Below, piece after piece: positions 29,064-33,542 of a stretch of 37,377 nucleotides of DNA. The DNA lies in contig JANYDT010000235.1 of assembly GCA_025359845.1 (NCBI GenBank), positions 1-37,377 of the forward strand, read 5' to 3'. This stretch comes from Acidimicrobiia bacterium. GTDB taxonomy: Bacteria; Actinomycetota; Acidimicrobiia; Acidimicrobiales; JANYDT01. The notes beneath the pieces were generated by a model. The model ran no database searches and was not told the DNA's origin. It saw only the letters and a program-made list of their open reading frames with translations. Numbering within the stretch: position 1 is the first letter of the stretch; each line of letters opens with the position of its first letter. The translations under genes and the position numbers were made by a program.

Positions 29064-31202
29064 TCAGCGCTGGAAGACGTCGTTGCTTTGCCAAACCCGG
29101 GCGAGTGGGCCGCTGCTACCAACGATCATCAGGTGCTTACCGCGCAGTAGCATTGACGACGGAACTTGCGATCCGGCGCCTCTGAAAGTCTCGTTGTCCG
29201 CCACCCGTGCTGGTTTACCTCCTTTTGGTATGACCCATACTCCGAGGTCGTAGTGGTCGGTTCCGTCGTTGACGGCCCCCGTCACCACCGTGCCGGATCG
29301 ACTAGCGGCTACGCCCGCAAGCTGCACGGAGTTCGCCGCGCCTACGGGCAGTGGGGTCGAAGCCCATGTCTTTGCGTCTTTCGTGTGCCAAACGAGCGAA
29401 TCGGCCGAATATGGACCCACCGCAACCAACCCTTCATCAGTCTTAGCGCAGCTGGTCAGTTGACCGGACTTGTTTCCGGCCGGGAGGCTGGCGATCCATT
29501 TCGTAGCCTCCGGATGCCAGGCCGCCGGAACGTCGACGCCCTCGGCATTGGCGATCGAGCCGACAATGATGGGCTCGCCCGAGCTGCCCGGACAAACCGC
29601 AAACGCGCGCTGGTCACCCGCCCCTGTCATCTCGTCGGAGGTGGTCGTTTGCCAGGTTACGCCGTCGTCGGACTGCCAAACGGCGGCATCGGTTCCGCCT
29701 TGATCGTCGGAGGTGGTACCCACGGCGACCCACTGGCCGTTGCTGTACATCGCTCCGAATAAGCGTTGGTCGCCCGTCCCGCTGAGCCCTTTCGGCTTCA
29801 TGTCAGTGACTATTCCGTCATCACCATAGCGCCAAACAGCGCCATCTGAAGTGCCCTGTTTGTCGGGTTGAAACCCAAAGAGATAGGTACCGTCGGCGCC
29901 TCGAACGGCGGCTTGCAAATACGTTCCGGTGGGAAGCTTCAATGTCGCCGGTTTGGTCAACGCGCCGCCGTCGTCGCGCCACGAAATCATGCGATAGGTC
30001 TCTGAGCCCGGTGCCTTACCTCGCAATGGCCCCTCGACTCCGACGATCTCGGTCCCTTTTCCACCTTGGACGATGATCGTCGCCGACCGGCCAGGAGTTC
30101 GCGCCGGGAACGCGTTGGCCGTGCTCCGTTCGGGGTCGGGATTGGCCACCCACGAATTCGCGTTGAAATCGAACACCGAAACGTTCGGTCGGCCGGCGCC
30201 GTACGAAGTGGCCACCAGATAGGGCGCCTTCAAGGCCACGGGTCCGGCAGCAACATCGAACGCGTTCGGAGCGATGTCGACTTTAAGGGCGTGGACATTG
30301 AGGCTATTGTCAAGAAAAGCGAAGAGGGTCTTACGGGCATGCTGGTCGTACAGCGCCAAATACGCACCGCTCATCGAAACCGGGGTGAGGTTCGTGGGAC
30401 TCTTGGAATCGCCGGTGTCTTCGTCGATAACGGCTGGCGCGGCCCGGCGCCAGCGCAGTACGCGCTGGTTATCGACTATGGCGTCATCGGAGCGCCACAG
30501 CATCAGGGCCGGCCCGGTAGGGGTGACCTCCGATCCGACGCCCACGTAAACCCGCCCAAGGTTGGAGACCCCGATGATCTCAGTCGACGAGTGGGTTGGA
30601 AACGGTTCGCTTCGTTTCCAAGTCGCCCCCTCGTCGGCGCTGATGTAGGCAATGGGTTGCGTAGTGCCGATCTTGCCGACCACACCGACGATGATCACTT
30701 CTTTTTCGCCGTTGCTGGAGACCGAACGAAACCCACGGAAGTCTTTGCTGCCCGGGACCGTCAGACGCCGCAATCCGCCCCGAGTGCCCCGTAGGACGAG
30801 CGGGCGATCTCCGTCGCTGCCTACGGCGACGAAGCCGTGTTGCGTGGCCGTCACGGCGGTGAGATTCTGGAGACCGGGGACCCGTTTGTCAGACGGGTGG
30901 AAGAGATGCCACGACTTGCGGTCGGGCGACGTCCAAATGGCGGCGTCGACATCGTTGCCCCGCCGAGAGTTGCCGACGGCGACCGCAGTGCCCCCGCGGG
31001 TCTGTTGGAGAGCGAGAATCGATGCTGAGTCGGCGGTCTTGGGAACGGGTAGGAAGCGGCGATTCCAATCCCACCGTTTGGTGCGTTCATCGATGGTCGA
31101 CGAAAAGATCACCGGTTTGGGTCGAGCGGTCGCCGTCTGTTGCCACGATCCGGCCAAGACCCATGGCGTCTTGCTGTCACCGGGAAGCGAGTCGGTCAGC
31201 AC
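29064..31202 (-). CDS. secreted beta-propeller-like (BNR/WD-type) protein; annotated start probably too short
   Basis: Repeated W-S-DG blades (DAAVWQSDDGVTWQ, DAAIWTSPDRKSWH, AYISADEGATWKRS); an in-frame signal-peptide-like sequence continues upstream to about 31350. Confidence 0.7.
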   Translation of the reverse strand: MLTDSLPGDSKTPWVLAGSWQQTATARPKPVIFSSTIDERTKRWDWNRRFLPVPKTADSASILALQQTRGGTAVAVGNSRRGNDVDAAIWTSPDRKSWHLFHPSDKRVPGLQNLTAVTATQHGFVAVGSDGDRPLVLRGTRGGLRRLTVPGSKDFRGFRSVSSNGEKEVIIVGVVGKIGTTQPIAYISADEGATWKRSEPFPTHSSTEIIGVSNLGRVYVGVGSEVTPTGPALMLWRSDDAIVDNQRVLRWRRAAPAVIDEDTGDSKSPTNLTPVSMSGAYLALYDQHARKTLFAFLDNSLNVHALKVDIAPNAFDVAAGPVALKAPYLVATSYGAGRPNVSVFDFNANSWVANPDPERSTANAFPARTPGRSATIIVQGGKGTEIVGVEGPLRGKAPGSETYRMISWRDDGGALTKPATLKLPTGTYLQAAVRGADGTYLFGFQPDKQGTSDGAVWRYGDDGIVTDMKPKGLSGTGDQRLFGAMYSNGQWVAVGTTSDDQGGTDAAVWQSDDGVTWQTTTSDEMTGAGDQRAFAVCPGSSGEPIIVGSIANAEGVDVPAAWHPEATKWIASLPAGNKSGQLTSCAKTDEGLVAVGPYSADSLVWHTKDAKTWASTPLPVGAANSVQLAGVAASRSGTVVTGAVNDGTDHYDLGVWVIPKGGKPARVADNETFRGAGSQVPSSMLLRGKHLMIVGSSGPLARVWQSNDVFQR

Positions 31203-31384: not shown

Positions 31385-31903
31385 TCAGCTGTTCTCAGTT
31401 AATTTGGCGAGAAGCTCGTCGACCGCCTTGTCGGCCAGAATTTGCATCTCTTCGTCGGTGCGGTCCTGGATGGGGTGGGCCACGAAAACGGCGTCAGGCG
31501 CATAACCCAACGATGCCGATTGGGCGGCCGCAGCTTCGATGAATTCGGACGAGGCGACGAACACCCCAGGCAGGCCACGGGATTCGAGGTCGGCGATGTC
31601 ATGCACACTGCACGACGTGCAGCTGCCTCAATCGGCCAGGGCTTCGATCACGGCTCCGCACTCGAGGCTGATCTGGTGGCGCAGGTCGATGGGAGCCGGC
31701 TTTGTGAACGTGGGCTTGGCGTACCGTTTCGTGGTGAGCCCACGTTCGTGCAGCCGCTCCTCCAAACGGTCGAGAAACACATTGCCACGAGGCTTTGAGA
31801 TGTCGAGCAACGCGACGGTGATGCCCTGCAATGATGACGGGCGGGTCACCCGCAGTCGGGGCGCCGCTCGCAGTTCGCTGGTGGGGTCGAGAAGTAAGGT
31901 CAT
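31385..31903 (-). CDS. UGSC family selenoprotein (in-frame TGA at 31628-31630 read as selenocysteine)
   Basis: ORFs 31628..32161 and 31385..31606 are in the same frame, separated by TGA: MTLLLDPTSEL...GAVIEALAD-U-GSCTSCSVHDIADLESRGLPGVFVASSEFIEAAAAQSASLGYAPDAVFVAHPIQDRTDEEMQILADKAVDELLAKLTENS*. Confidence 0.88.
31598..31616 (-). promoter_or_regulatory. candidate bacterial SECIS hairpin
   Basis: mRNA-sense GTCGTGCA-GTG-TGCATGAC: 8 bp including one G-U pair, GUG loop starting 20 nt (19 intervening nt) after the UGA. Confidence 0.7.
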
Positions 31904-33363
31904 GTACCGATCTCCTTTGTGATCATTTCGCTTCCGGTTGAGCCGTTGACCCAGCCTCCGATGATGCTCGAGAACATTCCGGCGCCCCCGCCACACTGAA
32001 CGAACCACAGTCCGTTGGGTCGGAACTTCGGCAACGTGGTGCCAGGTCGGGCCACGGTGGCCACGATACCCTCGGCGATCCCGCCGGCGCCGCGTACCAG
32101 TTCTTCCGATGGAATTTGCAGCTGGCCGAAGACGGCTTCGCGTAGGCGGGCCTTCGACCACCCAGCATCGCGGAAAACGCGCGCGTGCTCAGGTCCGACG
32201 ACCACGATGGCGTCCATCCCAAGGACCAATTTGGGGTGCCCGACACCGCGAAGGCAAGTCGCAAACGTACGAGCCAACGATTCGGGATCGCGGCTTTGTT
32301 GATCGACGACCCCGCGAGGCCCTTCGCCGGCGAACAGGGTTACCGCGCTCCGGCCCGGGGCGACGCCGCGCTCGGTGGCGAGCGACTCCCACGGCGAGTG
32401 ATCGTCATCTTCGGCGAAACAAAAGGTGTACTTGCCCGGATTGCCGAGTGCGGCTCTGTCGACTCCGCCCGGAACTCCGCCGCCGACGTTGCGGATGACG
32501 AGTTGCAATGCCCTTCCGATGGTCGCGTTGGCCCGATTGCCCTGACCGAGCACGTTGACGCCCGAGTTCATGCCGATGGCCTTGGCCAAGGGACCGTTGA
32601 CGATCACGACCGGCCCGCTGAAGTAAGTGGTGGCGAGCAGCCCGTGACCATTGAATTCGGTAGTGCACGCGGCTTCGACCGCAGCCAGCACCACCGGAAG
32701 ATATTCCGGCTTGCAACCAGCCATGACGGCGTTGATGGCGACCTTTTCGACGGTGCAGTCCACCAGATCGGGCGGTGCGACGGCGACTATTTCGTCGGGT
32801 GCGCGAGTCGTACCGGCCAGCATTCGCATGACCCGTTCCGGCGTCGGGGCCACCACCGGCAGCCCGTCAGTCCATCCTCGCGCGAACATGACCTCGGCCT
32901 CGTCTTCGGCGACGGCGAGTTCGATTCGCCGACTGCGCAACACCGACCCGCCGAATGTAACAGCCAGCCTCTCGGGCACACCCGGGTCGTAGGTTTTTGA
33001 GCCGCACCCGGGACGATAGGTCGGGAGATTCGACAATGCCGGGAGCGCGGCCATGCGGGCCGCGAGGTCGAAGCCGAGGAACTTCGTCCAGTGCGGCAGA
33101 GACCAGCCGACGGTGCGATCTACCTCGGAGCCATTCAAAATCCGTACCAACGTCGGAACGGTATCGATGTCAAGGTGGTAACTGAGCTCCAATGACGTGT
33201 CGTCGCGCACGGCCATGCCGTCAGGAAAGTTCGGGTCGTCTTGGCTGGCGACGCTGGTCACAAACCCGTCCCGGGCGAGCATCTCGAGAACGGGGGCGAC
33301 TAGCACGCACGTAGGGCAGTCGCGCTTGACAACCGCGTGAACGCCATCGACGAGCATGCTCAT
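31900..33363 (-). CDS. thioredoxin-like domain (CPTC) fused to a large uncharacterised domain; UGSC partner
   Basis: VVKRDCPTCVLVAPVLEMLARDG...IDTVPTLVRI (Trx-like with cis-Pro VP), then GWTDGLPVVAPTPERVMRML...AINAVMAGCKPEYLPVVLAAVEAA; ATGA overlap with the UGSC gene. Confidence 0.8.
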   Translation of the reverse strand: MSMLVDGVHAVVKRDCPTCVLVAPVLEMLARDGFVTSVASQDDPNFPDGMAVRDDTSLELSYHLDIDTVPTLVRILNGSEVDRTVGWSLPHWTKFLGFDLAARMAALPALSNLPTYRPGCGSKTYDPGVPERLAVTFGGSVLRSRRIELAVAEDEAEVMFARGWTDGLPVVAPTPERVMRMLAGTTRAPDEIVAVAPPDLVDCTVEKVAINAVMAGCKPEYLPVVLAAVEAACTTEFNGHGLLATTYFSGPVVIVNGPLAKAIGMNSGVNVLGQGNRANATIGRALQLVIRNVGGGVPGGVDRAALGNPGKYTFCFAEDDDHSPWESLATERGVAPGRSAVTLFAGEGPRGVVDQQSRDPESLARTFATCLRGVGHPKLVLGMDAIVVVGPEHARVFRDAGWSKARLREAVFGQLQIPSEELVRGAGGIAEGIVATVARPGTTLPKFRPNGLWFVQCGGGAGMFSSIIGGWVNGSTGSEMITKEIGT

Positions 33364-33542
33364 ATTGAGCACCGTAGCAAGGTAGCTGACGGACAATCGC
33401 TTTTCGCGCGGTCGCGGGTTCAACCAGGGGTATCGGAGGGGGGTTATTAAGTTGTCACTGAGAACTTCGTCACACCCTCTTCCTTTTGCGGCGGGCGCCC
33501 GGTAGGTTGAGTGTGTTCATAGTCACCAGGGGGAGACGCTCG

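Follow-up and report, generated by a model that had tools for sequence, protein, structure and literature searches.

An in-frame TGA that divides a minus-strand gene of the window, the whole 37,377-nucleotide stretch analysed here, is almost certainly decoded as selenocysteine (Sec), judging from comparison with its homologs. On balance we favour the reading that its product, a genuine UGSC selenoprotein decoded through a SECIS hairpin, is half of a Sec reductase of two subunits that receives electrons from thioredoxin and is a distant relative of GrdB and PrdB, since a near-constant thioredoxin-fused partner, itself bearing Sec in one family, points to an unrecognised two-part reductase. This nearly obligate partner gene, directly upstream of UGSC, was overlooked in the first-pass annotation of the window. 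The features concerned are:

31385..31903, minus strand: gene for the 172-aa UGSC selenoprotein, from ATG 31903 to the stop TGA at 31385-31387 (family models and homologs)
31628..31630, minus strand: UGA codon 92, almost certainly selenocysteine, the U of the UGSC motif, U-GS-C-TS-C or UxxCxxC (all 105 distinct homologs with 55% identity or more have TGA here)
31598..31616, minus strand: putative bacterial SECIS hairpin, GTCGTGCA-GTG-TGCATGAC, nt 12-30 past the UGA, 8 bp with one G-U and a 3-nt GUG loop (constraint, -9.1 kcal/mol, covariation)
31900..33423, minus strand: partner gene, thioredoxin-like domain, PG-C-GS linker and unannotated C-domain (the longest frame begins at TTG 33423; ATG 33363 or 33357 is the likely start)
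33307..33318, minus strand: C-P-T-C motif of the partner thioredoxin-like domain (partner alignment; PDB thioredoxins at E 3e-5)
32998..33012, minus strand: PG-C-GS motif, whose Cys140 (TGC, 33004-33006) is the TGA/Sec position in one related family (93 distinct homologs have TGC/TGT there and 10 have TGA)
31903..32958, minus strand: partner C-domain (DGLPVV.PT ... AGC.PEY ... RAN.TIGRA ... FCFAED), found elsewhere alone or fused to UGSC-like domains (alignment with plasmid records of bacteria and haloarchaea)

The UGSC gene occupies one minus-strand frame of 172 codons (31903-31388) whose sole interruption is the TGA at codon 92, and reading this TGA as Sec gives M...EALAD-U-GSCTSCSVHD...ENS*, with the Sec as U92. 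Translation bore out the original observation of two same-frame ORFs parted only by TGA. The coherence of the protein on both sides, also noted at that stage, is not due to chance, given that the joined protein matches both NCBIfam NF041046 (UGSC_fam; 143.7 bits, cut-off 125) and Pfam PF24696 (UGSC; 131.6 bits, cut-off 25) across the TGA. The motif U92-G-S-C95 is invariant across the alignment of UGSC homologs. TGA stands at codon 92 in 81 of 81 loci, comprising the window copy and the best 80 related loci of other genomes (62-71% identity), as well as in all the distinct homologs of at least 55% identity, so that no close homolog carries a sense codon there. More distant relatives in Arthrobacter, Variovorax, Roseovarius and haloarchaea have TGC or TGT at the Sec position. 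The statement that Sec is often replaced by Cys in this family was nevertheless an overstatement, as only a handful of the matches listed in the order lack the TGA, and a marine (GOS) selenoproteome survey counted 255 Sec against 21 Cys forms (PMC2398784). Standard gene callers do split or truncate such genes, as had been anticipated, and the UGSC records of Paracoccus ferrooxidans pFER4 and Acidovorax sp. T1 both end at the TGA.

The genome holding the window (4.69 Mb, 254 contigs, 93% complete) contains all the decoding genes whose presence the first-pass annotation had proposed to check: a tRNA-Sec with anticodon UCA (68.3 bits, above the Rfam cut-off), selA and selB, which adjoin each other, and selD (G000:C50:4617-5555), which has one in-frame TGA and is therefore probably a selenoprotein gene itself. 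Among 248 genomes of the order, selA was found in 114 of the 124 with UGSC versus 34 of the 124 without it (Fisher p = 5e-27). The ten UGSC genomes lacking selA include three assemblies that are 78-84% complete, three (G053, G154 and G245) whose listed UGSC matches lack the stop, and one with a weak UGSC match. The window's genome also has a second TGA-bearing UGSC gene on contig 196 (G000:C196:90654-91160; L020, L151), about 30% identical to the first, with a deviant SECIS stem and directly followed by a C-domain gene without thioredoxin domain or PG-C-GS. On a plasmid of Paracoccus ferrooxidans, selB (L189:10350-12125) lies near a TGA-type UGSC gene and partner, a hint that plasmids can carry Sec decoding along with its client.

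Because no SECIS model of Rfam matched at gathering or permissive thresholds, the hairpin was judged by synonymous constraint and covariation. Among the 105 distinct homologs the synonymous sites of codons 96-103 are nearly frozen (Thr96 ACG, Cys98 TGC, Val100 GTG, Asp102 GAC) and Ser99 is AGT in every one, whereas Ser36 and Ser94 draw on all six serine codons. Pairing of the 8-bp stem is 92.6% over 17 diverse Sec-type sequences, and in 11 cells both sides have changed; the covariation score of the stem was reached by none of 500 shuffles, and all slid registers scored worse. The minimum-energy fold of the 45-nt stretch is the conserved hairpin in most relatives and an overlapping one, CTGCAC/GTGCAG, in the window. 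Bacterial Cys-type relatives (Roseovarius, Variovorax, Arthrobacter) do not have the hairpin. With its position just past the UGA and a G in its GUG loop, the arrangement of a bSECIS, this conserved structure is, on comparative grounds, identified as the bacterial SECIS of the gene. The proposal of a real selenoprotein is thus supported by the family models, the decoding genes, the TGA-only close homologs, and the constraint and covariation of the hairpin.

The partner gene ends in a TGA that overlaps the UGSC ATG by 4 nt (ATGA). In 79 loci the distance from UGSC to an upstream partner is no more than 200 nt, and within the order 120 of 124 UGSC genomes have a strong partner match, versus 2 of 124 others (p = 6e-63). 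Apart from UGSC and partner, clustering of the wider neighbourhood, in which ORF clusters were contaminated by spurious high-GC frames, gave nothing shared by the window and most of the loci. A 712-aa ORF just downstream of UGSC (window 29064-31202) matches Pfam only weakly, through an Asp-box (BNR) repeat, and the 80 related loci contain no homolog of it. Pfam TraF/Thioredoxin matches to the N-domain of the partner are weak and limited to some members; no Pfam or NCBIfam family was found for the window's partner protein, nor for its C-domain of about 330 residues, either alone or over 17 diverse members. Since the main domain has no such model and gene callers end the frame of the Sec clade at UGA, the partner is hidden from current annotation. 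UGSC and partner do not appear to be paralogs, given an HHalign probability of 0.2% between them. A class I fumarase identity of the C-domain, raised by Foldseek, was also rejected (TM-scores about 0.22; HHalign probability 0.6% against the genome's own fumarase).

In the window's own partner, position 140 is Cys (TGC). The same position of PG-C-GS is TGA in ten distinct homologs, which comprise all eight genomes sampled from a single family of the order (L142-L149) and assemblies L061 and L072. Each of these UGA codons is followed by its own hairpin, GTCGACCC-CGGGC-GGGTCGAC or a variant, and the codons CCC GGG CGG are invariant in the ten-member set; among the Cys forms, of which 93 distinct ones have TGC or TGT, codon and residue vary there and the hairpin is not shared. 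The ten Sec-type partners form a single clade (support 99) nested among Cys forms, so that one Cys-to-Sec conversion would be the simplest reading, and the partner then exemplifies this change, accompanied by a newly arisen SECIS, in a clade that can be traced. We found no literature description of a PG-U-GS partner selenoprotein, an absence that is no proof, and the Sec-type partner is apparently an undescribed selenoprotein. An in-frame TGA at query position 94 of the partner in L110 was discarded, the alignment being of low identity and the codon outside any motif.

Other taxa show the same association in different arrangements. A plasmid record of Arthrobacter sp. ERGS1:01 has the order trxB-trxA-partner-UGSC, and the thioredoxin that is fused to the partner in Acidimicrobiia is a separate gene there. 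The order is partner-UGSC-trxB on a Roseovarius plasmid record, trxB lies upstream of the pair on one of Variovorax, and partner and UGSC form adjacent pairs in haloarchaea. Sporomusa termitida and Vibrio europaeus have single-chain proteins joining a UGSC-like domain to the C-domain, in which MGTS replaces UGSC; such fusions favour a shared complex of the two. In these fusions (L160:6329-8053 and L188:5323-7008) the Sec/Cys is lost (GDMGTS, ADMGTS) and genes for aconitase X and DUF126 lie beside them; they are possibly a non-redox branch, and redox chemistry may not be essential in every version. Many neighbours are catabolic genes, encoding CoA transferases, CoA ester lyase, TRAP/TTT transporters and aconitase X.

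AlphaFold gives UGSC (pLDDT 92.4) a beta-alpha structure of five strands and places the Sec where the helix past strand 3 begins. Foldseek matches of the model are flavodoxin-like proteins, lumazine synthase and similar Rossmann-like folds, with modest TM-scores, and the predicted fold is Rossmann/flavodoxin-like; there was no thioredoxin fold among the 50 matches listed. Searching PDB sequences with the UGSC profile gave no convincing chain. In a single HHalign comparison, a 126-sequence UGSC profile matched GrdB/PrdB-like sequences of the same order with a probability of 91% (E 1e-6, score 47.7), placing Sec on Sec; 30 column-shuffled alignments scored no higher than 18.5, and the reversed one 14.7. 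The likeness covers about 62 columns around and past the Sec, and falls to 32-45% against either subgroup alone. UxxC falls on UxxC, with a difference of one residue in the full-length GrdB set (UxxxxxC), and both have LExxGIPT. As 91% is below the usual 95% mark, distant homology of UGSC to GrdB/PrdB is likely from these profiles, short of proof. Short PrdB-like genes with P[VI]-TGA-PxC occur several per Acidimicrobiia genome (L171-L187), some extending into more C-terminal sequence; the Pfam GRDB match ends just before their Sec, so that models and gene callers both truncate them.

In the mechanism that we propose, ribosomes read the in-frame UGA as Sec by means of SelA, SelB and tRNA-Sec together with the hairpin just downstream, and UGSC and its upstream partner would be the two subunits of a single redox enzyme. 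Electrons would pass from the CPTC of the fused thioredoxin to the linker Cys of PG-C-GS (Sec in one family), and from PG-C/U-GS to the Sec-Cys pair of UGSC, a selenenylsulfide, after which the UGSC selenolate would attack or reduce a small substrate that UGSC and the C-domain hold between them. By analogy, this logic would be that of GrdB and PrdB, the Sec subunits of glycine and D-proline reductase. The signature of Sec decoding, the gene pairing, the fusions, the trxA/trxB linkage, the second Sec site and the profile similarity are observed in the sequences, and from them we infer the direction of electron flow, the formation of a complex and the reductase chemistry. A near-constant partner that contains thioredoxin, linkage to trxA/trxB and a profile like that of GrdB/PrdB together predict a defined two-protein complex that is open to expression and assay. 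A wider proposal, which we advance tentatively and consider about evenly balanced at best, is that UGSC and its thioredoxin-fused partner are an unrecognised type of Sec-dependent reductase, a distant sister of glycine/D-proline reductase, present in Acidimicrobiia, Proteobacteria and haloarchaea (as Cys forms), and that one lineage of Acidimicrobiia, by changing the electron-delivering Cys of the partner to Sec with a new SECIS, would have made a two-selenoprotein operon and an undescribed selenoprotein family.

Three other explanations have to be weighed against a two-subunit reductase. The most probable of them, although we consider it unlikely, is that UGSC and partner catalyse a non-reductive reaction, as a lyase, hydratase or racemase-like enzyme would, with Sec/Cys as nucleophile or metal ligand and thioredoxin only keeping it reduced. 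The weak Foldseek matches between the partner model and class I fumarase-like structures, the Sec/Cys-less fused forms beside aconitase X genes and the catabolic neighbours (CoA transferases, CoA ester lyase, TRAP/TTT transporters) are all consistent with such an enzyme; fumarase homology has no sequence support, however, and the change of partner Cys140 to Sec, together with the trxA/trxB linkage, suggests catalytic redox turnover. It is less probable still that UGSC works by itself, as a thiol oxidoreductase or peroxidase of general function and thioredoxin-like fold, beside an incidental neighbour. The UxxC motif agrees with this, and the 2008 marine survey guessed that the family is thioredoxin-like (PMC2398784), but the model (pLDDT 92) has a five-strand beta-alpha Rossmann/flavodoxin-like fold, and the neighbour overlaps UGSC in the window, accompanies it in 120/124 genomes versus 2/124 others of the order, and in other taxa shares a single chain with a UGSC-like domain.

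That the TGA of codon 92 is a true stop, owing to a pseudogene, a sequencing error or a short peptide, is scarcely credible: standard gene callers do end there, but TGA is kept in all close homologs with the protein conserved intact on both sides, the hairpin codons are frozen, the Sec machinery is present, and distant relatives have Cys at that position. Comparative sequence data already contradict it.

The reductase reading is closest to what is known of glycine and D-proline reductase. Like GrdB and PrdB, UGSC has a UxxC at a strand end in a beta-alpha domain, with some 80-90 residues C-terminal to the Sec (80 in UGSC, as compared with 86 in GrdB and 90 in PrdB; PMC3091704). Those proteins belong to multi-subunit enzymes, as is proposed for UGSC and its partner, and electron flow is thioredoxin-fed in the Grd case, running from TrxR to thioredoxin to GrdA/GrdB, while PrdB has a selenide-sulfide (PMC3091704). 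In contrast, UGSC has 172 aa, and the Pfam scan returned PF24696 only, with no match to PF07355 (GRDB) in UGSC or anywhere in the window's genome; neither GrdE/PrdA nor GrdA was found with UGSC, the partner C-domain having no significant Pfam match, to the pyruvoyl proprotein GrdE/PrdA or any other. The carriers also differ, being Acidimicrobiia, Proteobacteria and haloarchaea instead of amino-acid-fermenting anaerobes. We therefore keep the suggestion that UGSC may work like GrdB/PrdB apart from its classification as a UGSC-family member that has neither a PF07355 match nor a pyruvoyl partner.

A UGSC/Unknown_1 fusion of the GOS selenoproteome (PMC2398784) likewise joins UGSC to a conserved uncharacterised domain, and from the account in that paper's main text, which makes no mention of thioredoxin linkage or of Sec in the partner, Unknown_1 is likely the partner C-domain. 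We found no description in the literature that ties UGSC to a defined partner gene and a non-thioredoxin fold. The UGSC family itself is already known, and the window protein shows no family-level difference from NF041046 and PF24696, having equal length, the same motif and Sec codon, and passing both cut-offs; what is added here is the defined partner gene with its Sec-bearing clade, a predicted non-thioredoxin fold and the link to GrdB/PrdB.
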